64,000 bases of DNA from Branchiostoma floridae (Eukaryota > Chordata > Leptocardii > Amphioxiformes > Branchiostomatidae). This document shows, in pieces, positions 35,822 to 63,721 of the stretch (position 1 is its first letter; every line of letters starts with the position of its first letter). Both the position numbers and the translations under genes were made by a program. The stretch spans positions 16,553,048-16,617,047 of the forward strand of contig NC_049995.1 of assembly GCF_000003815.2 (NCBI RefSeq). The letters run 5' to 3'. Under the pieces are notes generated by a model. That model searched no databases. It was given only the letters and a program-made list of their open reading frames with translations, and was not told where the DNA came from.

Positions 35822-38800
35822 TATGTCGAAGCAGTAAGATGTTGAATAATGTTTTGTGACTTAATTGTTTTCTAGGAGGAGTTTGGTACTACACGGATGA
35901 GGTCCGTCCCGATCAGGGCTCCAGTGTGTACAACTCCCTCATCACGAACGTCAGTAAGGAGTCGTCGTGCTTCAGTGACTTCCCGTACCCGCGTGACTAT
36001 CCAGCTTACATATCCTGCCTTGTTTTGGGACAAAATGGATCGAAATTGTAACGAAATGGAAGAGAATTCCTGGCGTTTTTTTTTTGTTTGTTTTCTTTCA
36101 TAGGAGGAGTTTGGCACTACACGGACGAGCGGTGTACAGAAAGTGTGAAATGGAACGAAATTTCAAAGGAGGAGTTCGGTACTACATAAGCGGATGAAAA
36201 GTGAACAAAACGTGCGAAATGGAACGAAATTGGATTGTAATGAAACGAAATTCCTGACCCTTGTTTTGTTTTCCTTGCTAGGAGGAGTCTGGTACTACAC
36301 GGATGATGTCCGTCCCGAACAAGGCTCAAGTGTGTACAACTCCCTCATCACCAACGTCAGTAAGGAGTCGTCGTGCTTCAGTGACTTCCCCTACCCGCGT
36401 GACTACCCAGCCTACATGTCGTGCCACTTGCTACACAAGTACCTGCACCAGTACGCAGAGACGTTCGGGCTCAGCAAGTACGTCAGGCTCAACACTAAGG
36501 TCAGAGTCTTTATGAAAAAGACACACACTCAGACAAATGACAAAAAAAAAAGATGTATGAGCCAATTGCAAAACAAATGACACAACTTATCAAATTTCTG
36601 CCTTCGTTAAGTGCTAATGGCCAATACCCCAGAAACGTGACTTAACAAATTTAGATTCAAGAAATACTCAGGAAATACTCTGGGACTTTATCAAATAAAC
36701 TGTTATTCAACTCGGACACACAGACAAATGAGTAAAAAGATGATAATTTTATTTATGAGCCGACACAAAAGACACAACTCTGTGCTTTCCGGCTGCCCCT
36801 ACAGCCTTCGTTATGTGTGAATGACCAGTACCTCAAACACGTGACTTATTAAAGGCGGGCTCAACACTCAGGTTAGAGACTTTATGAAATAAAACATCCG
36901 TCATGATGCAGCACGATTAAGCACATCACTTTGAAAGTTAGGCCAAATATGACGCATGTGACGTCAGCCCTTCTAGGGATGGATCCATTAAGGATTAAGA
37001 GATCGAAAATGTTGGGCATTGTGCAATCTACCATAATGTGGTATAATTTGTTTGATAAATTGCACCTTTGACTTAATACCATTGGCACGTTGATTTTTTT
37101 TTGGGGGGGGGGGGGGTATTTTACTTGTTCGACACCGAAAGCAAAGTAAGGTGCGTTGTACTTTTCACCCACAAGGTGGTCGAAGTTCGTAAGGCAGAAG
37201 ACCACGTGACCACTGGACGCTGGATCGTGTCTTCGGTCAGCATGGCGGCGGAGGGATCTCCCAGAGAGGAGATGTACGACGCCCTGATGGTGTGCAGCGG
37301 TCCGTTCTCTAGATCCTTCACCCCAAACTACCCCGGACTCGAACAGTACACCGGCCTCACCATGCACAGTCGGGAATACAAGAGTCCCGACCCGTTTAGA
37401 GGGAAGAGAGTTTTAGTTATTGGTGCGTATAGTACTAGTACTCCTGTCGTCATCAGAGTACAATCCTAGTCTTTTAATTTAACTTGACTCGACTTCACTT
37501 GATCTGACATAAATAATCCTGGATCGATCTGCTCTAACCCATTTGAAAAATCTAAGAAGCTAGAGAAAAACGTAACGTTACATGCAAACCAGGAACACGG
37601 AGGTTCTACTTATCAATTTATATGATAATGCAGGTTTCTCTGTGGCAGAGACTGTCATTACTTTCACAAAGAAGGTTATTATAGACATTTAGTGCCGTCT
37701 GTGCTTCTGTTGTTGAACACTATGACTAGAGATGCTCTTGCTAGATCCGTATGATATTTGGTAGGTAGGTTAGAACCCAACAAAAGTCAAGTTCGATATT
37801 GAGCGCCCTAGAGGCTTTATATGGTACTGCAGTGGAATGTCCGGTTTAGATATGTCTTTCTGGTATAGGACTGATTTAGTCATATTAACTGATGTGGTAG
37901 TGTTGAAGCAAATCATTATTTGTGTCACCCTCACTTCTCTCTACGCATCTTCCCCTAGGGGCGGGAAACTCAGCTGGTGACGTTGCAGTAGACGTTTCTC
38001 ATGTGGCTTCAAAGGTGTGGTTCTTTTGATTTGACTCACTCTTACCTTCAAATGATTTTTTTTGGTTCAACACTTACCTTCAAATGCTTCCTTCCTCAAA
38101 ACAAAAACGGCAGTGTCACATCTAGTAGTTCTACAAGTACCATCATTAGCCTACAACTATACGCCAAAAATCCGTTACCTAAACAACTAGATAGGATTAT
38201 GGAAACGGTCAGACCGACTCAGACGTTTCAGACACCATCCGGTGTCTTTCGTCAGTGACACTTGTCAGTGACACGTTGTCAAAAACGTCTGACCGTTCCC
38301 ATAATCCTATCTAGTTGCTTGAGTCCGTAAATACGTTTTGGCGTATCTTATTACTTGGATGTCTAGCCTTCAGCGCTACAACTACATGTTGTATATCCAC
38401 TCATTTGTAATTTCCCGTCATGCTGACCATCTCCAAAGGTGAAAAAACTATTTTCTTTAATACGTCAGGCGAAAAGTAATGAACGCGCTGATGTAATCCA
38501 TAGAATTTACTTGCCGTGGCCTAACATGTTGTTCAATAATGATAAACGAATTTTAAAAATATTACGAAGTTATAACATTGCTCCCCAGCTGTACCTGAGC
38601 ATGCGGGACGGCACGTGGATCTACCCGCGCCTGTCCCACGGCGGCACGCCCATAGACATGCAGGGGTCCCGGGGACTCCTCACCTACCCCGCCTTCATCT
38701 AACAAAAACTACCCACTAATGCTATACCATTGCTCCCCAGTTATACCTGAGTATGCGAGATGGCACGTGGATTTACCCCCGCCTGTCTCATGGCGGCACA

Positions 38801-41800
38801 CCCATAGACATGTTGGGGTCCCGGGGACTCCTCACCTACCCCGCCGTCATCAACGCACACAGGTAATAGTAGTAGATTGGTTTATTCAGTCCTCACATAA
38901 AATATACAGGGCCTCGCAGTCATCTATAATGGTTGACTGAATTGTGCATGCGTTTACAAAAGTGGTAATGTTATAGTTGTATTATATTAAATCGCTATTT
39001 TCGAAAAAAAAAACAAGTACTGTTTACAATACGTACGTGTTACCGATTTGATTAAAATCAATATATATGGACAGAATAAAATTGTCAAACATTGATATCA
39101 ATTTTCATCTTCACTACACAAGACAGACAGTAGGTATTGCACTTATAGTGTGCTGGTGACATTTGCATCATTCAGCAACTTAGTCATGTAAGGTAAATCT
39201 TTCTGAAATGTTCAGTTCTTGTTCTGAAACTGTCCAGTTGTTTACTTGCAGGAGGAGACAGACTCTAGCTGAGCACGTCAACCAGAGGAACTACGGATTG
39301 GAGACCGCGAAGGACATGTACGAACATGTCATGGTCAATGATGAGCTGCGGTACAGCCTCATAAGTGGCAAGGTGTGCATTCTTGAGTGCCTATTTGATT
39401 ATGTGTGTTTGTGTGTGTGCGCGCGTGTGTGAGTGTGTGGCTGAGCATGTGTGTCAGTATGAGTGTCACGGTGTGTGATTGTGTGTGTCTCTGTACGTGT
39501 GTGTGTGTGTATGTGTGTGTATGTGCGTGAGTGTGTCTGTCTGTCCGTGCCCGCGTGTTTGTAGTTTGTCAGTGCGTGTGTGCGTCTGTCCGTGTGTACG
39601 AGTGCGTGCGTATGCGTGTGTCTATGGACTGGAGATTGCGAAAGTGAGCAATTCGCAATACTATGAATGTACACAATTCAGCATCGTGTTAACGTTACAT
39701 CCTCATCAGTGTAACACCAATCTATCTATACCTGTAGTCCTCTACATGTAACGGTCGCAAAGTGGTATTAGTAAGGGGCTGCGGTCTGCTATCACAATGA
39801 CTATAATGTTTTACCTTCAGGTTTTGTTGAGACCTGGAGTGACGAAGTTCACTCGCACGGGGGCGCTCCTTGCAGACGGCACCAAGTTGGAAAACATCGA
39901 CGCAGTTGTGTTCGCAACGGGTTATGTAGAAGCCAATGTCTCTTACTTGGACGACTCAATCCTCGCAAGTAAGACATCATTTTTAGGTTTTTGGCATTTT
40001 TATTGATTTTTCACATTAATCTTTCATTGTACTACTTTGGAGGTATCATTGAAGTAAACTTATCATTCTCCCTTTCCACCTCAAAAATAAAGGAAACACA
40101 AAGTGATGAATTTACGGTATACGTATACAATGGCGAATTTAGGGCCCGCTCCGTTATACATAACGTTATTTATCCTCCGACAGTAGTCAAATTTCGGCAA
40201 CGTATTTTCAGTTGTTGTTTTCAAACAGGACCTGAAACTAAAAAACGAAATAAGAGAATTTGTCCAATTAGAAAGTTTTTTTATTCAATGCCATGAAGTA
40301 GACCGCCTGTCAGTTTTATGCAGTAGACCGTATGGCAATACATGTTTTGAATGAACAAATACGAATCTATAATTACAGAGGACCCCACGAAGTTGGACCT
40401 GTACAAGCTCGTGTTTCCAGCCAACCTGCCCCACCCCTCAATGGCCGTGATTGGTTTCTTCCATGTCCGAGGGTCCATCCCGCCTGTTGCCGAGGTCCAG
40501 GCCCGATGGGCTGCCCGGGTCTTCTCGGTAACGCGATAGCTGTTGTTTGACTTTACTTTTATGTGTTCAAATGTGTCTTTTTTGTTCAACTTAAATCATG
40601 TGATTGTCACAAGTAGAAGGTTATTTCACAATAAACCATACAATCGCCAAAACACAGTCACTGAAGTGTCAATAACGAAAGATAGTGGATGCTATATGAA
40701 ACGTCTGACTGATGTTTCCAAAATCCTATTCAGTTGCTTGAGTGACTGCTTTTTGGCGTATCTTGTTACCTGGATGTCTTACCTTCCGATCGACAAACCA
40801 CACAAACATTCATTCGCACATTTACTCATTAATGTATTCATTTATCGCCTGTCATCGGCCAATTCTTCACAGAATACAATTAAAAGGATTAAATGGAACA
40901 GAATGGACTAGAATAGAATAGAATAGAATAGAATATAGAACAGAATAGAATAAAAAAAGAATAGAATAGAATAGAATAGAATAGGCTACGGCGGAATAGA
41001 GCATATCAGAAAAAAACAAGTTTACTAACTTGTAAAATCATACTTTGTCCTTAGACGAGAAATTGTATTGAGTTGTTGTTTGTTAATTGATTGATCACTT
41101 TTGTTCTTTATTTTCATTAAGGGTCGAGCAAAGCTTCCAGACCGGCAAACCATGCTAGAGCGCGTGCGCAGAGACAGGGAAGACAGACACCGGATTCTTG
41201 GGAAACACATGCGCAGTAAACTACCGGTACTTCTTCCTTTTTCATGGAGAAAACTTATAAAAGTACAAAATTAATTCAAAATTCAATGCTGCAATGCCCT
41301 ACCGGCCATTGATCAAGTTTAGACTGAAAACCATTCAATTGTATCCTACGATGTCTCCTGAAAATTTTCGGGTTAAATTAGCATGCAATTATATATACTC
41401 AGTTATAATGATGAGATTAGTTTCCAGTTGTATTTTTCACCATCCATTTTCCTGCACAGAGGGGACCAAAGAGGAGTTTTCAGACGACTTTGGTCTCCTT
41501 TGTGAAGGAGAACGATCACCGTCAATAGTTTTGAAAGTCTTCCATTAGATGACCAATTCAAGTGTCATAATTAACACTAAAATGATAGAAAATGTTTACT
41601 CTTGTCAACTTTTCTCTGAAAATATCTATTTTTCTTGAATTCCACAGAAGATCGGTGTTATCCCCTATCGTGACGAAATAGCGCGGGAAATCGGAGCCAT
41701 GCCAAGTTTCTGGAAGCTTCTACTCAAAGATCCCCGGTTAGCCTTCCGAGTCTACTTCCAGCCGCCCCTACCGGCCCACTACCGCCTTGTCGGTCCGCAC

Positions 41801-41977
41801 CAGTGGCCTGGAGCCGCTGACTACACCAAGGAGGCTGTCGGGAACACCTTCTACAGCCTGAGGCATGCCGGGAAGGATGTGACGTCACCCAGCAAGATGG
41901 CGGCGGTTTCTTCGATTTCAGTTTTGTTCGTTGTTGTCGTTGTTATTGTGGCAGTCGTAATACGAGTTATAATGTAA
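35429..41977 (+). CDS. FMO: Flavin-containing monooxygenase, 10 exons, complete
   Basis: NADPH- and FAD-dependent monooxygenase oxidising soft nucleophiles (amines, sulfides), expected in the ER membrane. Exons: 35429-35543, 36282-36499, 37176-37422, 37959-38014, 38741-38862, 39252-39372, 39821-39968, 40379-40527, 41122-41226, 41648-41977. Phases agree throughout, giving 536 residues, close to the ~530 usual for FMOs. Motifs: FAD loop GAGVCG at residues 10-15; FMO signature [11 protein letters not shown] (169-179, Tyr for the usual Phe); NADP loop GAGNSAGD (194-201); FATGY (324-328); hydrophobic tail after residue ~513 as a C-terminal anchor. ATG 35429 is chosen over in-frame 35372 because it yields the standard [12 protein letters not shown] start. 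Decayed duplicates of exons 1, 2 and 5 lie alongside. Donor at 41227 (GTACTT) is weak. Confidence 0.93.
35588..35822. repeat. CT, GT and GA microsatellites in FMO intron 1
   Basis: Runs of TCTCTC, then GTGTGT, GAGAGA and GTGTGT again. Long open frames here are artefacts of dinucleotide repeats. Confidence 0.9.
35876..36010 (+). pseudogene. Truncated first copy of FMO exon 2
   Basis: It has an acceptor (TTTTCTAG) and matches the true exon 36282-36499 from GGVWYYTD through PRDYPAY, then departs into intron-like sequence and a TAA at about 36048. It would be a poison exon if spliced. Confidence 0.85.
36104..36190 (+). pseudogene. Two exon-2 start fragments of FMO
   Basis: 36104 and 36169 each begin AG/GAGGAGTT(T/C)GG followed by ACTACA, the first ~25 bases of exon 2. 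Each is embedded in repeated AATGGAACGAAATT units. Confidence 0.75.
36500..36890 (+). repeat. Duplicated FMO exon-2 end and intron start
   Basis: GGCTCAACACTNAGGTNAGAG with TTTATGAAA at 36486-36514 recurs at about 36860-36888, and the sequence between is two diverged copies of the same ~200-bp intron piece (CAGACAAATGA, TATGAGCC, TGCCTTCGTTA / AGCCTTCGTTA, ACGTGACTTA). Confidence 0.65.
38160..38390. repeat. Inverted repeat with GGATTATGGAAACGG arms
   Basis: Arms at about 38184-38216 and 38284-38325 (CTAGATAGGATTATGGAAAC versus its near complement) surround CACCATCCGGTGT. Sequences resembling its right side recur at 40695-40780, so it is a dispersed element of unknown class. Confidence 0.6.
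38589..38703 (+). pseudogene. Truncated copy of FMO exon 5
   Basis: Follows ATTGCTCCCCAG like the intact exon at 38741 and encodes [19 protein letters not shown] through LLTYPAFI, then TAA (38700-38702). The donor region is missing. If used instead of the intact exon it would terminate the protein. Period of the duplication is 152 bp. Confidence 0.85.
39403..39630. repeat. GT-rich microsatellite in FMO intron 6
   Basis: Interrupted TGTGTG/GCGTGTG runs. Confidence 0.85.
40680..40790. repeat. Fragment related to 38160-38390
   Basis: Shares ACGTCTGAC, CCTATTCAGTTGCTTGAGT, TTTTGGCGTATCTT and TTACNTGGATGTCT with that element. Confidence 0.6.
40905..40985. repeat. (GAATA)n microsatellite
   Basis: Pentanucleotide run AGAATAGAATAGAATA in FMO intron 8. 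Confidence 0.9.
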
Positions 41978-44098: not shown

Positions 44099-44682
44099 CT
44101 CAATGGCTAGTTTTGCTGCATGGTCACGTCGCCTTGTTGCAGTGCACACCCTCGGCGCTAGGGAGAGCTGCTACCAAATGGCTGCTGCTGCACGCCGCAG
44201 TGAGCCGCCTTCCGTTTGGGGGTCCTCAAACCGGTGCGCTCACGGTCACGGGAACGCTCTGGAGTAGAAAAAGTGGATTGATGAATGAATTTATGAATGA
44301 ACGAACGCTTATTTAGCTAAAAGACTAAAATCAAAGGTGACGAGTAAATAAATACTTTGTTTAGCTTGGGATGATTGTCTACCATTCACCGATGTCAGTT
44401 GTTGATGCATTCACCAGTTGGTTTCTACATCACGCATATGTTGGATATTGAAGCTTGCGGAAGGTGTAAACCTACCCGAGTTGAGTCTCATCTGTGTGTG
44501 AAGGGGCGCCAGTCTCGGGAGGGAGATGGTCCGCTTTTCGGTACACGGGACAGCTGCGCATGCGTCGCCAGATTTCTTTTCCTCGCACTCTGTTCCCTTG
44601 TGAGCTGCAAGATTTGAAATTACCAAATTTGTTTTTCATACGAGCGATCGCGCTGACGTCACGGTTACGTCACGTGACGTCA
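44099..44682. other. Intergenic, left flank of the large transposon
   Basis: No gene recognised. It ends in the palindromic run ACGTCACGTGACGTCA immediately before the transposon. Confidence 0.5.
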
Positions 44683-44697
44683 TGGTAGGCAAAAAGC
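44683..44697 (+). repeat. Left terminal inverted repeat of transposon
   Basis: TGGTAGGCAAAAAGC, exact complement of 51961-51975. Confidence 0.9.
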
Positions 44698-44699
44698 TG

Positions 44700-44742
44700 C
44701 TGGTGGGCGAGGAGGACGGCCTGAACCCTCCTCGCCCACCAG
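44700..44742. repeat. Perfect 16-bp hairpin next to the left end
   Basis: CTGGTGGGCGAGGAGG (44700-44715) pairs perfectly with CCTCCTCGCCCACCAG (44727-44742) around an 11-base loop. It lies 2 bp inside the terminal repeat and ends 21 bp before the transposase ATG. No counterpart is seen at the right end. Confidence 0.85.
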
Positions 44743-44963
44743 TTGCGCGCGGGAAACGCAAACATGCCGACCAGTTGTTGTGCGATGAATTGTACTAACC
44801 GGAAGGATAAAGGCAGTAGAAAGAAGTTTTTTTAGAATCCCTGCGGAACCAGGACGAAGGGCTGCATGGCTTAGAGCCTTAAAAAGGTCAGATTTTGAGC
44901 AGGGAAAGAAAAACCCGACCGCGGCGTGGACACCACGAGGCCACGAGAGAGTGTGCAGCGACC

Positions 44964-44975
44964 ATTTCATCTCAG
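44964..44975 (+). other. THAP exon 1 end and donor
   Basis: ATTTCATCTCAG followed by GTTTGTG. The single trailing base joins GG of exon 2 to make Gly, giving the ordinary HFxSGxPSKDPxxPDxVPS order of metazoan THAP-transposase proteins. This supports the exon model despite the frameshift. Confidence 0.7.
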
Positions 44976-45329
44976 GTTTGTGATCTATATGTTTTATATT
45001 TTGTTGTTGTCCCCCTTGCATAAATACATTTTTCGTGATGTAATAGTGTACTTTTCGTTACACATCTGCGGAAAGCTTAAGTAAGTTTTGTCGCTGATTC
45101 ATGCCATATCAAGGATAGTGAATATTAATGTTACATGTATCAAAGTTTTACAGCGCGTCCACGTGGGAGGGGGGGGGGGGTCTGACTTATAAATAGTGGT
45201 AAAGTATCTGGGATGGACGTATACATATATAGTATACCAGAAGTATAACGTACATCACTTAACTGATTGACGAAGACATCTACAAATGTTTTAAAATGTC
45301 TTTAAAATCATCTACATCTACATGGGAAT

Positions 45330-45690
45330 ACCCCCAGATGGCCCCTACTGGAGCATATTGTGTGGGGAGGCCCCCAGCGGGTAGACCTCCACCTTGGTCC
45401 GGACCATTGTGGGATAGTGCAGGGGAAAGAAAGAACCAGACTGTGGAGTTTGATCCACTCACACCGGGATGATCCCCTGCTCTTTTCGATAAGTGTGGTG
45501 GGTTCTTTCAGTTTAACATGCCGAGGTGTGTAGCCGAAGCCAGGTACTCATTTTTCACCTTAGTGAAGTGAGGAAATAGGTGTAAAGTATGGTTTAAGTA
45601 CCTTTCCCAAGGGCACTACAACAAAGTGACCTATCAGGGATTCCAACTCATACTTATCTTTGGATTATGAGTCCTACACCCTAACCACAA
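45330..45690 (-). mobile_element. tRNA-derived SINE in transposase intron 1
   Basis: Minus strand: A box TGGTTAGGGTG, an anticodon arm GGACTCATAATCC with CAT in the loop, and B box GTTGGAATCCC, followed by a body with GTACTTAAACC and GGTTCTTTC-type blocks shared with other SINE-like repeats here. Not a functional tRNA. Confidence 0.6.
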
Positions 45691-45990
45691 GACCAATTGC
45701 CACCTCATTTTAAAATCATGTTTATAATACTGACAAGTTCTTTGCTTCTTGCATTGCAGGGAACCCTTCTAAAGACCCTGCAGATCCAGATTACGTCCCA
45801 AGCTTGTTTAACCTCCCAACCTCAGCAAGTTGCAATCGTTCAAGAAACCCAGTTGCCAAGAAAGATCGGTAGGTAACATTGGGGTTTTCAATGTTTCTTT
45901 ATTGAAATTTGATTTACTGCTCATGCTGTTCATGCAGGCAGGCTGTTCATGCCTGTGTGAAACATTGCTATACTCTACCTCCTTGCCTGA

Positions 45991-46200
45991 GAAGATGACC
46001 ATGAAAGTTTTACCAAGGATTCAGTTAAATCTCACAAAGATCCTGTAAGTTACTCATGTTAGAGTTTACACCTAGTCAAATGTTTTATATTTCATAACAT
46101 TCACAGCAGTAATCACTAAATGCTATGCTAACAGAATGTATGTAGGAAACAAAGCATGCAACTTTGATTTACAACTTACAACATGCTTCATTGTTTGCAG
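45991..46200. other. Transposase intron, nothing recognised
   Basis: Intronic sequence between exons 2 and 3 of the transposase gene. No feature identified. Confidence 0.5.
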
Positions 46201-47709
46201 GTATATGCGTGCAGCAAAAAGGCTGCGGGTGTCATCAGAGAATGAAGCCCCACCTACATCACTAAATGGTAAGGGCATTACAGAGGGAATAAGAAAAGTG
46301 TCTAATGGATACAATCAGTAATCCTAAACATATAAATTCTTGATCAACAGTTTAATCTATCATTCTTGCTCAACAAGTAAATCTATCACTTGTCACTTAT
46401 TCAACATGAATCACATACCATACACACAAGACTACTTGCTACAAAGTTTATCCGCTTGGTTTTCGGAGTGGGGATATAGATGTGAATCAAGTAGAGAAGC
46501 ATGCAACCTGCATGAGTAAAATATTGAAACAACAATACATACATATGAATCAGAGTTTAGAACATTCAGTTCAGTTCAGATATATGACACTCATAATCAC
46601 ATAGCACTTTCATTGAACTTCGGATTTGCTTTATTTCAGATGAAGAAATGATCGCTGACCCTCCTCCTGAAAGTGTAGAGACTCTGAGAGACCCCCTTCC
46701 TGAAAGTGTAGAGACTCAGAGAGAACAGCTCACAAAAGTACAAGAGGAGAAATGTAAGTTGGAACAGTTTTGCGAGTCCCTTCAAAGTGAAGCTGACAAC
46801 CTTAGGGAAGAACGTGATCACCTTCAAGAACAAATCAAGAAATCATCAACATCAGCCTCCAATCTCACAGATGCAAAATGCAAGCTCTTCACTGGAATAC
46901 CTACTGTTGCACTGTTTATGTTTGTGTTTAGACTTGTTAGTGATTTCATTGCTCCTCTAAAGTCCATGTGTCAGCAGGATCAAATACTCATGACTCTCAT
47001 GAAGTTGAGACTAGGCCTCAAAAATGCTGATCTAGCTTTGAGATTTAGTGTTTCTGCCTCCACAGTTTCAAAAGTCATAAACCGTTGTATTCCAATCTTA
47101 GCTGTCCGACTAAAGTTCCTGATTCATTGGCCGTCCAAGGAAACCGTAAAGCGCAATCTTCCCAAAAAATTTCGGAAAAAAAAATACTCAAACTGTAGAG
47201 TCATCATTGATTGCTCAGAGATTTTCACTGAGAGGCCATACAATTTAAAGACCCGAGCAAAGACCTGGAGTAACTATAAACACCATCATACGTTCAAATT
47301 TCTGGTAGGTATTACACCTTATGGAGCAGTGTCATTTCTGTCCAGTTCCTGGGGTGGAAGAATTTCTGATAAAGACATTACGCTAAAAAGTCGTTTCTAT
47401 AACAAAGTGGAATATGGTGATATGATTATGGCAGATCGGGGATTCACCATTTCTGAGGAACTTGCCCTGAAAGGAGCAACACTAGTTATGCCACCATTTA
47501 CCACAGGAAGGACACAACTCCCGGGGCGTATCGTCCAAGATGCCAGACAGATATCAGCTCTAAGAATTCATGTAGAACGTGCAATTGAAAGAATCAAGAA
47601 CTTCCAAATTCTCAGCCAAATCTGTCCATTAACATTTGCCCCTCTACTCAGTGACAGTGTTGTTATCTGTGCGGCTCTTACAAACTTACTTCCAAAGCTA
47701 ATCAAGTAA

Positions 47710-47953
47710 TTTTTAATGGCAATGTTGTCTGCACGAGCTGGCCTTTTCTGTATATCAAAATACTGAGATTGAAGGTAAAATGTTAAAGGGACACAAAACA
47801 AATTTTTGGGAAGCCCACTACAATATAATAAGTATACCACAAAGTACAATTCTTACTTGTTTTACATTAGTTTTTTAAAACATGACATAAAACTGTAAAA
47901 TGCCTTCTATTGTTATACTAGTATTTTTAGTATTTCAAACTGTCCAGTAGGAT
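47710..47953. other. Gap between the two convergent transposon genes
   Basis: AT-rich, no ORF. It must hold both 3' ends, so the transcripts may overlap. Confidence 0.5.
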
Positions 47954-50900
47954 TTAGCATTGACAACAGGGACAGAACCAATGGCCCCTTGGTTTTCTCT
48001 TGATGCCAACACATTTGTAATGGAACCATTCTGACTCACATTCATTGTTATCACACTTTACCATCCTACCATATGCTGGTTTCTGACAAGAACAGTAACG
48101 TTTGTTTGGGTCATCATCTTCCTGGAAAGTCACATCTACTCCAGAGTCTCCACACTGTAACTTGTGGGTCAGTATCTCAGGGATAAGACTGGACTTTACA
48201 AACTGGACACATGTAGACAACATTACATTTAACAGTGACTGGTCCCTTGGAACATTTACTACAACCATGCCTGCATTAGTCCACACTACAAAATCACATG
48301 TTGAGACACCGGTAACCAGCATATGTGTCTGGACTTGGGTGTAATATCTGTGCCCTGTCTTTAGCTTACAATCCTTATCTAAACAGTAGTTGGCATCTGA
48401 TAGACACAGATCTGCAGCAGGATAGATGTCCCTGTACTTGTATGGGCACTTGATCTCAATCACAGTTCTTCCATGGCATGAACACTGTCTCATCCCATCA
48501 GGAGATGCACCTATATATACAACAGTAATGTTCAAATTAGTGGCAAAGTTTCTGATATTTCAAACATGAACATAATGTACTTACTTTTGATACTTGCCAA
48601 ATGCTGCAAATGGCACATATTCACTTGGTACGAATACAGTGCAATTGTTAAAACAAGTACATGTATTTCATTGTTACATCAACAAAATCATAAGTCAATT
48701 AGACATTGTGTAGTTGGTACTCAATTACATGTACTATACTTCATAAGTTTGAAGTAAGAGCCAAAATTAGCTATACCTATGAAGGGAAAATCCTTGTAGA
48801 GAATGAGCCCCACTTCCTCCAATTTCACATCCTTGCAGATGCACAAGGTAGCTTCCAGGTACTGTTGCCTTGCCTTCTCCTCCTGTTTCATCCCCCATTG
48901 TATAGCTGGAACCTGAAAGTGAAATTCCCTATTTAGAATTTCTGACATAGAAAGCACAAATGAATTACATCTCTAATATGACACTATCTCGCATTGACTG
49001 AACATTTAGACTGTCACACTTTGCAGAAATATTTAGACTCCTGGTATTGTTTAAATCCAAATAAAGATCAGAGCTACACTTGCTCTGGGATTATTATGGT
49101 ACATGTTCCAATATACAGGGTAATGTTGTCTCTTTGTGTGCCTTAATTACCTACGAAAAATGGCTTCCTGCAAGTGTACACTGTACTAGTTTTCAGTTAA
49201 CTCACTTGGCTCAAATCCTTGCAGTCATATTGCATGACCTTCCGTACTGCAGTGGTGGGGTTTGATGCATGAAGGACATCATGCATGGATGTAGAAGTCA
49301 CACGACCCTTGCGTTGCTGACGCCATAAAGCAGACTTGGACTGCCCCACTGTAGCTTTGTTGAGGTTTGTGATTTGCTCGGGGTTGCACCGAACATCCTC
49401 AAGGATGCTGTCTACACTAACACTAGTAACAGGGACTTTGGCTGGATGACAAGACCTGTATACCACAGGGGGAAGCGTCTCTGTGTTGACATCTGACTCA
49501 TCTTCTGATGCTGTGTCTGTGTCCTCCTCCTCTTTAATGACAGCACTGGCAGTGGGACACAGCTTCCTCAGTTGTGAGAAAGCAGAAGCGGCCTCTTCTT
49601 CACTGAGTGGTGGCACATCACACTGCGGCTTCCGGCGCGCCTTCTTGATCTGGACTCCATGTTTAGGGTGCGAAAAGTCCATGTCCTCAGCCCTTTGTGG
49701 ATCAACCTGAAAGAAATAATCCACAAAATGAATTATCAATAATATATGTGAGAAAAAGCATTATACAGTGGCCATGTCAGATATTACACTTTACAAAGAG
49801 GAACATCTTAGCCTGCAGTCCAACCTTGTTGTGCTTTAGTTCGCTCCCAAAGGTCGCTACCCCATGGCATTGACGGGGTAGCCACCGTTGGGAGTGGACT
49901 AAAGCACAACAAGGCTGGACTCCAGGCTAGGAACATCTACTATATTGCTGTAAATCTATAGTGTAGTGCTATATATTGTGAATTGGATACATGTAAATGC
50001 CACATGATTTTGTAGAAGCAAAGAAATCCATTCATTAATGTAAGTTATAACAGTCTACTTAGGCAAAAAAATTGTAGACATTGAAAAAAATTCTACTCAA
50101 TTATAATGCCCAAATATGAACAGACCTTATCTTTGTAATATTTGTTCCACACGGCCTTTCTGCTGGTGCATGACGTCCGTTTTTCCTGAAGAGACCTGGA
50201 GGCCTCCACTGCGAACAGCAGTGCAGCCACATGGCTGCAGACCTCTCCCAATCTACATTGAAATATAACAAAAAATGAGTATACATTATAGGTACTATAG
50301 TCAGGAGCAATTTTAGAGTTAATGGTAAAAGGAACGGATAAGTTGGCCAGCTTCACAGTACAATGAAAGATTTGCCTTATCTTCTCATTATGGAAGTCTC
50401 TGTGATATTTGAATATTTCTACTATATACACATTTCTTTTAGCATTATCTACATCTACATGATGATATGTGTTAGTATACTCACTCTCAGGAACTGTTGA
50501 TAACTCCAAATTACCTAGAAAACGAAACACATCAACAAGTAAAACCTGCAACAAGAACATCAACAAGAAGAAATGCATTTGCAACAGGTACAAATACAAC
50601 TGGAAACCATCAAGCACAAGAACATGAACCAAGGAAAAAAATTAAGACAGTTATCTTGCCACATACAAACTGCATGGTCGCTCCTCCCTGGAAATATACG
50701 GAGGAACATTTACAGGTGAGTACTAGTTTGACTTTCATTATTTCTAAAACTGTTTCTTGCCATGGACCTCATCTGACGAGAACACTGTTAGATAAAAATG
50801 TGACTTTTTGGATATGATGGTCAATGCAGTTATATTACCTACCCTGCCATACAAGTGCAGTGAGCTGCCATGACATAACCCTCTTTTTTGGTCAAACACA

Positions 50901-51647
50901 CCCATGGGTTGTGAGGAGTCTCTGTTACTCTCTGTCCTGAAACACAAATGTAACAGAAAAAAAAGATAATACAGTAAATATAAAAACGTATCTGACAGTT
51001 AAATACTAATCACGCATCTCATTCTTCATCTTCAAGAGTTCTCACTACAGGTACATGTAAGTAGAAATATTGTTCCAATGCACTCCAACACCCACCTGGC
51101 ACAACCTTGGCCTTAAGGAAGCAGACCTTCACATTTTTTCCAATAGGGTGGTACCTGCACTCCCTCACATGGCCACTTATAAAGAGATTGTACGCCTCCA
51201 GGGATTTATAGGCTTTCATGGCTTCTCCGTTAAACGGACCTGGAGCCTCGATTAGGTAGGTGTAGATGCACCCATAGTCCGTATCTGGCCAGAGGCTCAA
51301 ATCATCCTTCCAACCTGTATAACATACAAATGATAATAAACATAACGTTACGTAGCCAGAATTTCTAGAGATTAGCAACAAACACATTTACACGTACTCA
51401 TGTTTTTGTAACCTTTATCTGACACAAAAATCTACCTTATCAAAATCTAGAAACACATGTACACATGATCCTCACCTGTCAGACTGTATGGGTCAGGTAG
51501 GCGTACACCGTCACCAGTCACCGCCGAACCAGTCACTTCCGGGTTTGAACTATCGCCGGCGTCTTCGACACTTACCATTAATTTCTCAAAATACCTGGTT
51601 CGGTCATTAGGCTCCAAAGAGCTAATGTAGCTGTTTGAAGAACTCAT
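47954..51647 (-). CDS. SWIM-YqaJ nuclease-PHD protein of the transposon, intact
   Basis: Seven exons (5' to 3'): 51647-51476, 51314-51096, 50936-50843, 50252-50126, 49706-49206, 48912-48777, 48510-47954. All have AG/GT borders and matching phases, giving 601 residues without a stop. SWIM zinc finger: Cys157-x-Cys159 ... Cys167-x-His169 (CTCMAGLGEVCSH, split by an intron). An acidic linker (TDTASEDESD) precedes a YqaJ/lambda-exonuclease-type domain: EEKARQQY (~382-389), GASPDG (Asp421), EIKCP (Glu435, Lys437) and YYTQVQTHM (Gln475, Gln477). A C-terminal PHD finger (~554-601) carries CSCQKP, CDNNEC, WFHYKCV and WFCPCC. Inferred role: a 5'-3' exonuclease acting with the transposase, with PHD as histone reader. 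Integrity suggests recent activity. Confidence 0.88.
49800..49938. mobile_element. 121-bp MITE nested in an intron of the nuclease gene
   Basis: Element 49809-49929, ends TAGCCTGCAGTCCAACC and GGCTGGACTCCAGGCTA, nearly palindromic, flanked by exact 9-bp GGAACATCT on both sides. It lies in the intron between exons 4 and 5. Confidence 0.85.
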
Positions 51648-51960
51648 ATTGATTAAACGTATTAATTAAACCACATTAGGAACAGAAATATAACAGCCCG
51701 GAACGGATGACAGAAAGCCCGTACGGCGGGAAAATCAAAACAACCGGAAACACATGACGGAAGTCAAGAGGGCAAGGGTCATTTTCTCCCAAAATATTAC
51801 ACAAGAAAAAAAAAAAAAGACTAAGAAGTAGTGAAAAAAATACAAAATCTGAAAAAATCCCATGGATGCGATAAAAACGTGGCTGAAAATGCGCAAATTC
51901 GCGTAAACAGTACGATCTGCTTCCGCGCCGGTATGCTAATTAGTAATCTGATCTCCTAAC

Positions 51961-51975
51961 GCTTTTTGCCTACCA
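51961..51975 (-). repeat. Right terminal inverted repeat of transposon
   Basis: GCTTTTTGCCTACCA, complement of the left terminus. Confidence 0.9.
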
Positions 51976-52068
51976 GTCAGCGCTCGTGCGCCGAATACCC
52001 CGGATGTAAACAATAACAGCGATTGCTCGTATTAAAGACGCAGTAAAGAGTAAGGTAACTTGAAGAAG

Positions 52069-52280: not shown

Positions 52281-54513
52281 CTTAGGGTTAAGGAATGAAC
52301 CAAAGAAAAAGACATCCAAAGAGTACAGCTGTTTGACGCGAAGCTTCAAGGTGCTTTTTCAAGTAGCTAGTGGTAACGTTAGTGCAATGTGGCTTTGCTT
52401 TGGCCCGCGTTTCTGCTTGGGCTACACAGCTTAATTTGTGTGTCTCTACAGCAGATGGTTAGTTCGCTGGTAGTGATGTGTGTTTAGCTTCCATACTCTT
52501 TTCCAAATGCTGAGTGCTTAAAGCATAGAAAGCAGCATGTAACGTTAACGTTAACATTTTTTAAGTTTTTGGTGTGGCTCGGGACCGACAGAATGCGAAC
52601 ACTTTATACTCACTCGACCATTGCGGTTGACAAAAGAAATAACGTCAAGTAGAAAAATTGCGACATTTGACGGAATACTTAAAATGACCTCTGACCCACC
52701 TGTTGTGAGGGATTCGATCAGGTCGGCCAGATCCTCCATTGCGCATGCCTGGTCATGAACGAACTTCTCAAGTTTCAACCGTTCGTCTCGGTCCTTTTTC
52801 AGCGCCTTCAAAAGATCTGAAATAATGCATGTTTAATTATTTGTGTTATGATTACCTTCTTCTGAAACATCAAACCAATGTCGCCTTATTCGGGATCAAT
52901 ACTGACCAATCAATTTAGAACGTTAACTAACGTTTCACGTGTTTATAACTCTCGCGAGTTTACGTTGTGAAGGGATATGTCATCAGTATTGATCCTGAAA
53001 AAGGCGACAGTGGTCGTTGATGAAAAGCTGTTCCGTGTGTATCTTTGAGTTGGAAGAAGCTTAAAATTGTACCAAGAATTGTGCTAAGAACCCAATGTAG
53101 ACGGCCTAAATTTTAGGCAAAAAAGAAAACCAAGACGGCGGAGTCCTCACTTTGTTGCTCCTTGTGCAGGTTATTGACCTCGTGACGAAGTGCCCGGATG
53201 CAGTTGTGCTCTCCCATCAGGCCATAGCTGATCTCCATCTCACAACCCTGGAAAAACAATCAAACAAATAAATAAGTAAATAAACAACTGATCTCCACAT
53301 CGAAAAACAAACAAATAAGGAAAAATAAACAATTACTTTGTCGCTATTGTTAACTAGTTATCACAGCCTCTAATACTGTGGTAAGAGGCAGTTCACCTGA
53401 TAATGATTGGTCCATGCTATGTTAGCACACATACATAGAAGAATGAAGTCAAGCTACGTAAGAAAATACAAATAGGGAAGTCGAACGCCAGATTGCAATA
53501 AAACCGTTCACAATTGGCGTTTGCAGCATACTTTTGCTAGGCACCCAGTGAATACAATAAAGCAAGCAATCAAAGACGCCAATGTACCGCTAAGCGTTGG
53601 CAGACTCTCTGAATCTACCATTAAGCGCTTCCAGTGCCCTCATATTTACTGTTAGCGATTGTAGGACCCCCACCCCACCCATACAGGCCCTCATAAACGC
53701 ATTCGACCGTACCCTGTTGCAGCTGACAACCCGGTACGAGGTAGGCGCGCGGCACACGGCACATTCTCCAGGCATAACAAACAAATAAATAAACAAACAA
53801 ACGTATACCTTGTTGAAGCTGACGAGGCGATGCTGACAGATCTCGGTATGATCAGGCATCTCCGCACGAGGCAGCCGTACGGCACACGGCTTGTTATTCA
53901 ATCAAACAAACAAACAAACGTACCTTGTTACAGCTGACGAGGCGATGCTGACAGATCTCGGTATGGTCCGGTATCTCTGCCCGCGGTAGCCGCACGGCAC
54001 ACGGCTTGTTCTCCAGACAAACAAACAAACAAACAGACAAACAAACGTACCTTGTTGCCGCTGACGAGGCGGTGCTGACAGATCTCGGTATGATCAGACA
54101 TCTCTGCCCGCGGTAGCCGTACGGCACACGGCTTGTTCTCCAGACAAACAAACAGACAAACAAACAATCATACCTTGTTGCAGCTGACGAGGCGATGCTG
54201 ACAGATCTCGGTATGGTCCGGCATCTCAGCGCGAGGTAGCCGTACGGCACACGGCTTGTTCGGGCAGACCACAGTCACAAACTCGCACTCTTCGATATGG
54301 GCATCCCTCTGAAGAAACGACAAATATACAAGCTTTGTGAAAATGCCGTGGCTCTCTTTAGTTCTGATATAGACAGAAGGGCCGTGCGTTAGTGTGGGCG
54401 TCGTATGTGGCGTAGCTAGTTAAGTGTTGGCTCGAAACAGTAGGCTCGGGTGATTGCCGCAGACTCGTCGTCCGAGCATTTTCGCGAAATGTGACAGGGG
54501 TATAAGGACGCGG

Positions 54514-54564
<51 letters not shown>

Positions 54565-57500
54565 TCGTGCGATCGTCGAACAATTTTGATGCCATTGGAT
54601 TTTCAAGCAGGCCGTGACAGAGCCAACCATCGATTTGGATCGACAGTTGAACTTTCCAGGAGACGTACATTTCTGTCCTCCAAAATTTCCAAAGTTGGCG
54701 ATCGTACGACGATCTCGCGAACTACGTGACCGCGCCCTTCGGACAAATTAGGGACTTCGGAGCACGGCCGGAAATACACTTTCGACGGGCAACGGCAAAT
54801 GGTACCGTAGTAGTCATCTCAAGGCAGATTTACCAGTGGCATAAGATAGTATCATAGCTGGCTAAGGAGTACAGCTGGCCATATGGAGTCATCAGACACT
54901 GGCAGCCAAACACACTCTTAGGCCGGCTTCACTCCTCTGACAGCTTTTGATACTATCTTATGCCAAAGTAGGACCTGCTTGGAGATTACCGTAGTATTTG
55001 AGAACATGGTAGGATCTCTCTTACCGTAAACATAAACATGACTGCAGGATGGCAGCAACTGTGCACACTTCTCCGTACGACGAAAATTAAAGACTAAACG
55101 TATATGCTCAAAAAGACGCAGATGTTCCTGTATGTTTCTCCGCCTTCTCTGGAATTTTGTACACGTGGAAAGCCACCCAATAGAAATATAGCTAGTGACT
55201 TATATTTAGCTATCCAAGGCGCGAGTCTGAGATTACCCATATGGTTAAACCCTCCATGAACGCATTAGCTTTTAGCTTCAAGAGTGTTCTGACTTCTAAG
55301 GAATTTTTCTAATGATTTTATGTGCTAACCTTTTCATGTGCTATATTTTTTACTTTAGTAATACAGTGAAAGCCAGTTAATTGCACGTTGGATAAACGCA
55401 CACTTCGGTCAAATGCACGAAATCCCCAAATCCCGTGGCGGTGCGGTCCATCTGGGTAACTTCGTATTATCGCACACGCCGGATAATTGCACGGAATTCG
55501 CTGGCAAATTGGGTGTGCAATTAAGCGGCTTCCACTGTACTGCCCTCGCAAAATTATGGTAGTTTGTTTGGGATGTAAAAGGCAGTGGAAGGAGAGAGTA
55601 CAGTCTATCTATCACATTATTTTAGTTTAAAAAAGTCCGGTCGAAAACCGTGTTAACTACTTTTACACATGATAATGGTTGTCTGATGTCATGCAAAAAT
55701 TAAAGAGAGCGCTGATGGCATATCATAAAATTCACTTGCTGTGTCCAAGTGACACTTCAACCTGTTCGTGAAAAACAAAACAAAAAACATAATTGGATAG
55801 GGCTCATCTGCGAATGACGTCATGTCGCTAGGCAACGAACACGTCATAGAGGAAGCTACTGCCATTGCCACTTGTTCAAATGAAAGAATGATAATTGTTT
55901 TCCATTTCGAACTGATTTACGCACTTAAGATTGAAAATAATAGTGAAACACAAAAATTATCAAGGTAGCTTGTTATCTACACTTTTTTTCACACTTGGCA
56001 TGTTATTCTGGCGTATGTTTTTGCATTACCAGATAACAGCGTAACAGCGTTAACATTAGGCAGTTTTGTACGACGCATTGTTCGAATGTAAAAAGTTTGC
56101 AAGGACCTGTTGAAAATATCGTTGCTAAGATTTTTTCACAGGGACCAAATGGTAGCCAGGTTGCCATGGACATAATAAAGTGAACTGCCAGCTTTTGCTT
56201 CCTGGTTACCTAAAGCCCTTCAGTGTTACAGGAAAAAGAGGTAATATCTAGCTGGGTAGACCATTATAAAACACAAAAAGTAGGGATAGATTAATGCAAG
56301 CACAAGACACTTGTGATATCTTGCCTGGGCAGAATAAAGTAACGACGCCTTACCGAAACGCATGCCATACTATGGTTGAAAATTTCAATGTATTAAAGCA
56401 CCTTAAATATCTAACTACTTTATGCATTGAGGTATTGTGTATTGTGCAGTGGTATGGTTAGCGGCCCTGCCTCTGGAACTACATTGTAGACGCCGTGAGT
56501 TCTATTCCGGCTGTGTCGCTCACCCGACATGCACGCTACTGGAAGTGGTTGCAGGACGGGACGTTAAGCCGTGATCCACTGTTCATTGTGCTCGTCGCAA
56601 AAAGCTAGGAGAATTTCCCCTGTACAATAAACGTGTAGATACTGTACATAACCTCTGTCGTTTCTGTCACTGCAAATTGAAAATGAGCCCTTTAGTGAGC
56701 TGAACTGGATCGAAATCATTTTCACTAACTATGTCATGGGCTCCCGAGGGTACCCGCAAAGGGGTAGGCCAAAAATTACCCCCAAGACGAATCATCTTAA
56801 ACGGAAAGGAAACGGGTTGGAACAAAATGGACAGCATAGCAGTAGCTGCTCAAAACAGCACCCTATGGAGAAAGTACGCTCACCGAGTTGACCAATGCAA
56901 CAGTGTTGCGGGAGGATCTATGGTCTAAGGTAAGATAACAACGGGACAGTAAAACAAAATCATTCCTACCTGGTCTTGGAAGTCAACATTGTCGACTGAT
57001 ACGACACAGATTCTGCACGGAACGGCTCCCATGTTAGTACGCTTATTCCAAACCTTCAAGAACACCTGACTTTCTCTGTAGCTGTATAGAAAGTCTATAA
57101 CCGCTCTTCGGCGTAACCCAACTACACTTCTCTAATTGATCTGACGTGTGTGTGTGTGGCGTTTTATACACCACAAAAACTCCCAGCTGCCTACGCCATT
57201 ACGCAATCGCGAATCACGACATTGAAAATTAGTCATTCAGAATTATTGTTTACCGGTACCTAAGGCGTCTCGTGTCATCACGACTTCATCTTTCGTGGTA
57301 AGATAAAAGATATAATAGAAAGGGTTTGACGAAAAAGGTTAAATATGATGGAGGGGATTTGAGGGAAAATGTGAGAATTGAAATACGGAATCCTTCCACA
57401 AATACGTGCGTATTTACTAACTTAAAAAAGTGAAGACGGTTCTTCAATAACAGTTTGAAATACGATACGTTTACGACAGTATATTTTAAGTGATTTACAT

Positions 57501-60500
57501 GACGTCAGCAACCGTAGCCTAGAGGGTAGTCACGTTATCCTTGTCACCGGGCAGTATGACGTCATTGTTAGAATTCAAAGCCTTCAAGATCATGTTCAAG
57601 ACCAACGCTGAACGTGTTGTTGCAGTGACTAATTCGATATAAAGGTTAATGTAGTATAAGCTTGAGTTTTTCCATCTCTTAAATGATGCTAGCATTAAAT
57701 ATGGTAGTTGGACACATGTAGCACTGCCATTGGACTAACCCCTACTGTAGGGCAAAGTATTTAAGTTGCCAAGAGTCAAAAAGCCTTTTCGCACGTTTTA
57801 CGTACGTGTAAATAACACTTATATGTCGATAGATCCTTGACCGAGTAATGGCTAAGAGTTGTACTGAGACTTTAAACTGGTTCATACATGTACCTTTTCC
57901 CTATCTTAACACACAGCTTTTGAAAACAGCATGGGAGTTGAACACACACTGCTGCCATAGCCAGGCAACGTGTGGTACGGCTCAACTCCCATGGTGTGTG
58001 TTCAACTCCCATACTAACCATCCTAACCATTGGAATAGTCTTGAGATGTGTTTTTGAGAAATCACACAATGACTGTAGACTCTTAAGGGATAAGATGGTC
58101 TTGGAAATAAGTAGGAAATGTGGAATTATAAGTGTCAATGATTCATATTATTGACGCAGCGCTACATTCAATGAGAAATCATGACACATAACAGAACGGA
58201 GGAGGAAGTGAGCTTCATTTCCTTTCATCTAGCTAGATTGGAGAACAATATTTTTATCCTCCTCTAGGCAACAGAATTCTCGGAAGGAAGATTGAACAAA
58301 TGATTCAACACACAGATGACGGTATAGCGATATAGATTCTTCATGGTTTCATTCAGGACTTAAGCGACATTTCCTGCTTTCTAGCTCGTCAACAGAAAAA
58401 CATGATTATCCCCTCTTGGCAAAAGAATCTTCAAGGGTATAAAAGTGACCTTCTTGTCTAAAGGTCTTCTCCGGATCTATTTGTTATTTGTTATTGGGTG
58501 GGCCGACTATTCGCTCTTTGCAGTCAGGGGCTGAATTGCAAGGAACTTGCAATAGGCGGGGCTAAATCGCAAGGGCCTGGAGCGAGCTGCCATTCCGCGC
58601 CACTTAGGTACGGTAGTAATTGCCCCAGGTGCGGCCAAGGTACTGTAGGTTTTGAACCACTCCCACCGCACCTTGGCACGTGTGGCGGGTTCTTTATACC
58701 CCCCTCACATTAGGCGCGATTCGATCGGACGACGAGTCTGCGAGGTCAAAATTACGAGGAGGCATGACCCTGACGGGAAGGGGGGAACTCTACCATTTCT
58801 TCGTCGGCATCAGGGTCATGCCTCCTCGTAAACTAGAGCTCGCAAACTCGTCGTCCGATCGAATCGCGCCGAATGTGAGGGGGGTATTAACGTGCCTGGG
58901 GTATGGCTCTCCCCAGACACGGGACATCCATCTAACGTCCTTATCCGAGGGACGACCCTAACTCAAGCTAAGTACTCATTTTCCTGATCCTTGATATGAT
59001 GAGTCACCATGACGCGTCAGTCACGGCACGGAATGATATAAGCGGCATTTCCTGTTATCTAGCGCAACTAGAAGATGTTTATCCCTTTCTTGGCAACAAA
59101 TTCTTCACGACGATAAAGGCGATTGTCATAAAGACGTTTTCTTCCTTAATGTGTGAGTAACACGCGCGTGTCCCGAGATGCTTTTGCTGACTCATGAGCA
59201 TTTAGAAGCTTACTGCTTTGTACTGACGCACGCGAGTACGATCAAAGCATCAACCCATGGCCAACCTCAGCTGAACCTTCTCCACTCATAAACAACCGAG
59301 TACAGGAGCCTCATGTTAAAAGCTTGTTTAAACCAAGGATAAAACAACAATGCACAGTCGGGACTATGTAATACTATGTTTCTGCAAAAAGAGGTATAGG
59401 CTTCACGTTATCAGTCAAACATATGATTTATTTGCAACAACAGAGATGGTTGTTTCCTGTTGTTGAACGATATTTAACACTGAACATACTATATTCTTCT
59501 CGGAAGTCTGTAGTCCATCAAACGAATGCCACGCGCCTAGCATCGAAGGGAAATGACAAACAAAATACTCCCTTCGTAGAACCAACTCGGAAGCTGGTTC
59601 AAAAGTGATATTGACTTTCTTACAACAGAATAAAGGAGCCTCGTGTTAAAAGCAAGTCTATATCAGAGTTCAATAGATTTAATACGAAGATAAAAACACG
59701 GGGCTATGCAATATCATGTTACTGCTACGTACAGGCTCGTTCACGTTTTTCGTTAAACAAATATTTTATTTGCAACGATAGAGAAGCGATCGTTTCCTTT
59801 TGTTGAATAATCAACGCTTAGCATGCCATCCCCTTCTCGGAAGTCTGTAATCCATGCGACTAGCATCAAAGGGAAGTGGAAAACAAAACACTCCCAATAG
59901 TAAATGGTTAACTAGAATTAAGATTAATAGGGATATGCATAAGTTTTTTCTTGTTTCTGAAAACCTTATTGATAGTCCACACAATGTACAAATATCATGG
60001 GGCACTTTCTGTATCCAATGATTTGCATCAATATCTCAGTTTATTTCTGTTTTGATTTATGGTTTGGGACAAGTTGATGTCCCTTTGTTTTGTTTTGATG
60101 TGTTGTGTTGTGTTGGTTCGTACTACTGAATTAAAAAAAAAAAATTAAAAAAAAAAACACTCCCTTCGTAGAACCGATACGGAAGCTGTTTCATAAGTGG
60201 CATTAACTTTCTCCAATCACAAACATGTTTCTGCAAAAGCAACTATTTGCAACGAGAGATGGTTGTTTCTTTTTATTGTAATACGTCCCTCGGATAGGAC
60301 GTTAAATGGAGGTCCCGTGTCTGGGAAGAGCCATACCCCGGGCACGTTAAAGAACCCGCCACATGTGCGATGGTGCGGTGTGAGCGGTTCAAAACCTACA
60401 GTACCTTGGCCGCACCTGGGGCAATTACTGTCGTATTGAGGTCACCTGAGTGGCGCCGAATGGCAGCTCGCTCCAGACACTTGCGACAGTCGTATTGAGG

Positions 60501-63475: not shown

Positions 63476-63721
63476 GTTGATCCTCTCTCGCGCCGTTTTT
63501 CTTGTGATGAATTTCCAAGGACCGTGTCTTTAATTTGTGCACTGAAATAGAATGAAAAAAAAGTGTCAAACGAATTTTGAAATATCCTTACATCAAAGCA
63601 ATCTCAAGTTGGGAGTAGTGTTTAGACATTTTCTTTTATTTGACGACTGTTTCAGGCGATCGCTGAGATGACACTAATGCCATCTAGCGAAGTTGAAAAT
63701 ATTTGCAGAAACACATGTGCC

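Follow-up and report, generated by a model that had tools for sequence, protein, structure and literature searches.

A young amphioxus DNA transposon assigned to ISL2EU, with a predicted SWIM-YqaJ-PHD partner protein

Introduction

What use would a cut-and-paste DNA transposon have for a nuclease of its own, fused to a finger of the kind found in chromatin proteins? The question is raised by a locus of Branchiostoma floridae lying in a stretch of 64,000 nucleotides (assembly GCF_000003815.2, contig NC_049995.1, positions 16,553,048 to 16,617,047, forward strand), hereafter the window, from whose first letter all positions are counted. An earlier note on these letters had described a near-complete two-gene transposon at 44683..51975, bounded by 15-bp terminal repeats, and had likened it to the animal family ISL2EU. 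It pointed to other copies and empty sites as the places to check this, and named two weaknesses: termini of related copies might lie elsewhere, and the minus-strand gene might be a host gene present without the transposase. From a comparison of 31 genomic left ends, the window copy included, we find that the element spans 44640–52030 (7391 bp); its sequence marks it as a young, recently active, multi-copy cut-and-paste DNA transposon, and we assign it to ISL2EU with high confidence. The best overall explanation, to which we give a probability of roughly 0.5, is that this ISL2EU transposon has a YqaJ partner that is tethered to chromatin and processes DNA ends.

Papers are cited here by PMC number for the portions of their text consulted. 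Those of a 2015 survey describe ISL2EU, of the PHIS superfamily, as having AT duplications, a THAP/HTH/DDE transposase, a YqaJ second gene and inverted repeats that usually begin with GG (PMC4482050); the pairing of THAP-DDE transposase and YqaJ, which the earlier note had given as known, was thus already published. The survey's authors called the function of the YqaJ gene unknown, and the words SWIM and PHD are absent from its main text (PMC4482050). The gene content is repeated in a second paper, which did not find ISL2EU in amphioxus and sets out a disagreement in print over Branchiostoma, one study having reported ISL2EU there and another having been unable to find it (PMC9179366). The young family described here bears on that disagreement.

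Results

The left 218 bases of the element, used as a query against the genome containing the window (513,431,437 bases in 431 contigs), matched 31 places, a lower bound. Other copies therefore exist, as the earlier note had supposed; 20 were fetched with their flanks, and short left-end stretches were obtained for the 10 remaining. Beyond the 15-bp repeats, the adjoining 30 bases agree fully with the window at every left flank (20 of 20) and at every available right flank (14 of 14). Identity across the copies gives out 43 bp beyond the left repeat and 55 bp beyond the right one. Identity with the 20 fetched copies starts and stops at 44640 and 52030, so that the termini of related copies do lie at positions other than those first proposed. 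The terminal inverted repeats are 12 bp long, ACGAGCRATCGC, with 11 of 12 positions matching: the left one, ACGAGCGATCGC (44640..44651, plus strand), is the same in all 31 left ends, and the right one, ACGAGCAATCGC (52019..52030, minus strand), was defined by the multi-copy end comparison.

The exact 15-bp inverted repeat is real, with TGGTAGGCAAAAAGC at 44683..44697 (plus strand) and a perfect match at 51961..51975 (minus strand), and is subterminal rather than terminal. When the two 400-bp end zones are compared, no perfect inverted match is longer, and chance does not account for it, since 200 dinucleotide shuffles all gave 12 or fewer. The repeat is probably a binding site of the transposase THAP domain. 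Just inside the left copy, a 16-bp perfect palindrome with an 11-bp loop (44700..44742, plus strand) holds two TGGTGGGCG near-copies, with 2 mismatches, of the repeat core.

The dinucleotide AT borders every one of the 31 left ends, among whose flanks 30 are distinct, and each of the 15 available right ends, the window copy included (44638..44639 and 52031..52032, plus strand). One copy (L019) is inserted in repeated host sequence, and its joined flanks match 10 places, two of which are the flanks themselves. Six paralogues of this site, 67–77% identical, were examined, and they supplied the empty sites sought: one (L061) runs across the site with one AT and is as long as the flanks joined through a single AT, a second (L059) is one base longer, and the other four have a deletion across the insertion point. 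Because AT stands at the ends of the copies and these two sites, one clean and one near-clean, lack the element, AT is most likely a 2-bp target-site duplication. The base preceding it, with the two sides pooled, is A in 22, C in 14, T in 8 and G in 2 of 46 flanks, which fits the ISL2EU target preference A-AT-T only loosely. Two left ends on different contigs (L031, C9:7695716; L033, C3:7985566) have a common left host flank, either because the element entered a repeat or by segmental duplication.

Within these bounds lie two convergent spliced genes, tail to tail, as the earlier note had it. The plus-strand gene encodes a THAP-HTH-DDE transposase (THAP 4.3e-9, in one reading-frame piece; HTH_Tnp_4 1.7e-17; DDE_Tnp_4 3.4e-42). 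Its first exon (44765..44975), the end of which was placed by eye from a GT donor, carries the THAP domain; exons 2 (45760..45868) and 3 (46201..46268) come from the gene model; and exon 4 (46640..47709) holds a coiled-coil-like stretch followed by HTH_Tnp_4 and DDE_Tnp_4, with the D, D and E residues assigned by eye at spacings of 74 and 46 residues. "Near-complete" is fair wording for the window copy, in whose transposase a frame change disrupts the THAP exon. The same change is present in 3 of the 31 copies (the window copy, L009 and L010), and there are copies in which the exon is open. A defect common to three copies suggests that transposase is supplied in trans; recurrent slippage in a T run is a possible alternative.

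The minus-strand gene has seven exons and six introns, all GT-AG, and encodes a 601-residue protein in which a SWIM zinc finger, a lambda-exonuclease-like YqaJ domain and a PHD finger follow one another. Exons 1 (51476..51647) and 2 (51096..51314), from the gene model, lead to exon 3 (50843..50936), with the first part of the SWIM finger, and exon 4 (50126..50252), with the remainder; the finger covers residues 157–169 and matches the motif CxC-x7-CxH exactly. The nuclease domain (Pfam YqaJ, residues 332–485) begins in exon 5 (49206..49706). Exon 6 (48777..48912) contributes the predicted catalytic E382, and exon 7 (47954..48510) the predicted catalytic D421, E435, K437 and Q475/Q477, then the PHD finger and the stop. 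Pfam recognises YqaJ (3.7e-19) and Viral_alk_exo (2.1e-8), and the best solved relatives of the domain are the exonuclease 3SYY (1.8e-4) and "uncharacterized protein R354" (1.9e-3), which we take to be a mimivirus protein. The E, D, E-x-K and Q residues of lambda-exonuclease-like YqaJ domains are all present; E382, D421, E435, K437, Q475 and Q477 are invariant over four divergent proteins aligned, and we presume these conserved residues to be catalytic.

The PHD finger (47957..48115, minus strand) finds its best matches among ING proteins (ING4, 1weu, E 3e-18). Its Cys/His pattern aligns with ING4, as do a Y before the first Cys, an M and a W, which we take to be the ING aromatic cage for trimethylated lysine 4 of histone H3 (H3K4me3). 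The similarity makes it an ING-type finger, of the class that reads H3K4me3, and it looks built to read this mark of active chromatin; the chromatin reader of the earlier note is borne out to that extent, and we add that such fingers recur elsewhere and vary in their presence. The partner is thus probably a DNA-chewing enzyme, a nuclease, fused to a chromatin-type finger.

Three copies (L016, L017 and L025) are complete and 99.7–99.8% identical to the window copy over the inner 7293 bp. Among the 11 of 20 fetched copies examined for it, the YqaJ gene is open for 601 residues in these three and in L014, whose DDE exon has a different length. The whole last YqaJ exon is found, stop-free and at 99–100% identity, at 15 genomic places including the window. 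All 15 adjoin a DDE match, which in 12 covers the whole query in one frame, as judged by eye. The 31 left ends do not include two of the 15 (C2:33.26 Mb and C7:2.39 Mb), and the family is therefore larger than 31.

An internal deletion bordered on either side by real sequence is seen in at least 10 of the 20 fetched copies; many other apparent gaps are N runs, which makes this count a lower bound. The left breakpoint lies in the DDE exon in nine of the ten. BLAST overlaps at the junctions are 1–8 bp in nine, and the tenth has a 30-bp filler. As a separate observation, nine of the ten deletions, with distinct breakpoints, begin in a 715-bp stretch of the DDE exon, 46702–47416. Mosaic elements formed by recombination were considered and rejected, most apparent replaced segments being assembly gaps (N runs). 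Four copies (L011, L012, L026 and L027) have real non-element sequence, 364–1240 bases, inside or replacing parts of the copy.

A genome search with the YqaJ-PHD exon gave 48 matches. Of these, 20 belong to the same family, 3 have the PHD finger only and are probably host ING-like genes, 1 is the second part of a locus, and the remaining 24 are YqaJ places of divergent sequence. A transposase match lies within 12 kb of 16 of the 24, and within 3.2 kb of 15 of these; the two are convergent in 13 and divergent in 3. This count used 27 of 143 transposase matches, the remainder having been checked by eye against the eight misses. The 3' side was read, over varying lengths, at 14 divergent loci, which represent fewer families than loci. 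Six of the 14 show a PHD-like pattern on the strand of YqaJ (on C1, C8, C311, C227, C2 and C19, the first two being copies of one family), and none of the 14 shows one on the opposite strand. The loci on C1, C8 and C311 have two PHD fingers each. The first finger of L039 is ING-like (YNG1, 3.6e-7), and that of L044, on C227, is closest to BPTF, TAF3 and SPP1. L044 also aligns directly to lambda exonuclease (1AVQ, 2.6e-6), with E, D and E-x-K in register. These comparisons suggest a nuclease kept functional-looking and a chromatin finger that is recurrent, not universal. An 893-residue frame on C6 seemed to hold a PHD finger, but this was an artefact of N runs, and scans of viral contigs found no viral relatives. 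One divergent family (L039, L041 and L045; C1:27982300-27987700 and C8:16143600-16146300) has SWIM, YqaJ and two PHD fingers, and the frame of L045 runs on, by eye, into what we take to be a ULP1/C48 protease-like domain.

Discussion

The assignment to ISL2EU follows from a DDE transposase with HTH and THAP domains, a YqaJ exonuclease domain in the second gene, and an AT duplication; the element is also repetitive, with at least 31 genomic places, and mobile, its complete copies being so nearly identical. The call that the earlier note had made from the gene pair is thereby strengthened by the duplication and the copies. The tips begin with AC (ACGAGC), unlike the GG usual in ISL2EU, and the element is 7.4 kb long against an ISL2EU mean of about 4.8 kb (PMC4482050); the first difference does not exclude membership, since the survey says "usually". 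PIF/Harbinger elements belong to the same superfamily and also have two genes, but their partner is Myb/SANT-like and their duplication the 3-bp TWA (PMC4482050), where the partner here is YqaJ and the duplication AT.

How might such a partner serve transposition? The THAP domain would bind the subterminal TGGTAGGC repeats, while cutting at the tips and joining them into AT would fall to the DDE domain. The YqaJ protein, acting as a 5'-to-3' exonuclease of the lambda-exonuclease kind, would be tethered to H3K4me3 nucleosomes by its PHD finger and to DNA or protein by its SWIM finger, and would resect the ends left at the donor site. The gap could then be steered into repair copied from the sister or from another copy of the element, by which a cut-and-paste element might keep or gain copies; repair that was interrupted would yield internally deleted ones. 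Interrupted gap repair in DNA transposons generally leaves internal deletions of the kind seen here in 10 of the 20 fetched copies. A role for the partner in resection and gap repair during transposition, in line with the end resection or recombination-assisted insertion that the earlier note had proposed, would be allowed by the conserved nuclease residues but is put forward tentatively. A bolder version is unlikely: that a PHD-anchored, lambda-exonuclease-like resection machine, seated on H3K4me3 nucleosomes at donor or target, amplifies ISL2EU through copied gap repair, with fingers of the H3K4me3-reader type gained or exchanged more than once among families (ING-like here, BPTF/TAF3-like elsewhere), in parallel with RAG2 in a different class.

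Several observations weigh against a chromatin-tethered, end-processing partner. The earlier note's intact 601-residue SWIM-YqaJ-PHD protein stands as regards its open frame, its YqaJ and PHD domains and its SWIM motif, but Pfam scores the SWIM finger at 0.049, below cutoff, and H3K4me3 binding by the PHD finger is predicted from homology alone. Within 12 kb of eight of the 24 divergent YqaJ places no transposase match occurs, and 8 of 14 divergent loci have no PHD finger by pattern, so that the PHD finger is not essential to the class. With exact matching, the overlaps at 6 of the 10 deletion junctions are merely 1–3 bp, and the other 4 read as filler of 2–30 bp, three of them partly owing to mismatches close by; strong microhomology, suggested by the BLAST overlaps of up to 8 bp, was rejected on this account. 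DNA transposons that lack a nuclease partner commonly show internal deletions too, and host resection or host enzymes could be the source of those seen here.

The main rival is targeting: the PHD finger would direct the transposase complex to promoters marked by H3K4me3, with YqaJ serving mainly as a DNA-binding or structural protein, like the Myb-like partner of Harbinger. The ING-type finger, and the ING-like or BPTF/TAF3-like fingers of relatives, would suit it, as would the insertion of the window copy 85 bp from a motif at 44555 that we take to be an NRF1-like site. We consider it doubtful. A purely structural protein would have no need of conserved nuclease residues, and the mean CpG observed/expected over 21 insertion sites (6 with the left flank only) shows no local peak, with 0.86 in the nearest 500 bp against 0.87 at 500–1000 bp. 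Both values exceed the mean of the 64-kb window, 0.62, a weak control from one region, so that the lack of a peak is not decisive. Insertion into a CpG island or promoter (a CpG-rich target with CRE sites) was set aside separately: much of that signal comes from the element's own ends, 44640–44682 and 51976–52030, and the 21 sites show no peak.

Distinctly improbable is a role in defence or silencing, in which the nuclease, with no direct part in transposition, would act upon DNA of the host or of competitors, to counter silencing or other elements. Retention of the partner, when other transposons need none, might be counted for it, but no sequence feature indicates such a target, and the close linkage of YqaJ and transposase in 16 of 24 divergent places fits a part in transposition better. 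The reading of YqaJ as a host gene, or as a passenger trapped by chance between repeats, has next to no probability and is refuted for this family: the eight divergent places without a nearby transposase would agree with it, whereas a transposase stands beside YqaJ in 15 of 15 near-identical places holding the last exon, a divergent one lies near it in the 16 just named, and the lone host gene feared in the earlier note did not appear. Least credible is a different class of transposon, with the 15-bp repeats as its termini and GTCA as a 4-bp duplication, which the multi-copy comparison rules out: GTCA does flank both sides in all 15 copies with both ends, but it is element sequence, because the 30 bases on each side are equally constant and identity continues past it to 44640 and 52030, and the paralogous empty sites fit AT.

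Among known systems, RAG1-RAG2 and ProtoRAG likewise combine a DDE-type recombinase with a separate partner protein, but their transposase is of the Transib class, the partner is a Kelch protein rather than a nuclease, and the RAG2L of ProtoRAG lacks a PHD finger (PMC11844651, PMC4411706). The PHD finger of vertebrate RAG2 reads H3K4me3, recruits the complex and restrains transposition (PMC11844651). We draw the comparison as a parallel in possible working, not as membership. Transposases of Rehavkus and of MULE elements have PHD and SWIM fingers, respectively; these are listed with the transposase, the duplications are mostly about 9 bp, and the text consulted makes no mention of YqaJ (PMC6446971). 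Lambda exonuclease and the YqaJ nucleases of phages and viruses share with the present domain the sequence family and the E, D, E-x-K and Q residues; the present domain differs in being part of a eukaryotic transposon, where SWIM and PHD fingers are fused to it. Among openly licensed PMC papers we found none linking YqaJ, a PHD finger and a transposon, none combining a SWIM zinc finger, exonuclease, transposase and PHD, and only unrelated work for SWIM with YqaJ. The class is known; the SWIM-YqaJ-PHD architecture with an ING-type PHD finger is notable, with no prior description found in the literature searched.

With a young family, 15 stop-free last YqaJ exons, exact ends, a well-supported duplication and a domain map, the role of the partner is now testable. 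Should an exonuclease tied to active chromatin indeed aid repair or placement, it would add a new route to those by which DNA transposons multiply, and the chromatin-reading finger of RAG2 would have an independent counterpart.

Other features of the window

A nested foldback element of 121 bp lies in a YqaJ intron (49809..49929, no strand assigned), bounded by 9-bp direct repeats, GGAACATCT, at 49800–49808 and 49930–49938. Its inverted arms are matched in 11 of the 20 fetched copies, and the nested insertion therefore predates the spread of the family.

The genome also holds 22 decayed copies of another transposase relative (45–47% identity; matches near 126–267), each with an in-frame TAG. 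This expansion is separate, and by eye none of its copies adjoins a YqaJ match.

Host genes flank the transposon on either side. At 52554–63526, on the minus strand, is one with a RING domain and a TRAF-type zinc finger, in which several near-identical TRAF exons can be seen by eye at 53.8–54.4 kb; at 37077–41974, on the plus strand, is a flavin monooxygenase gene.

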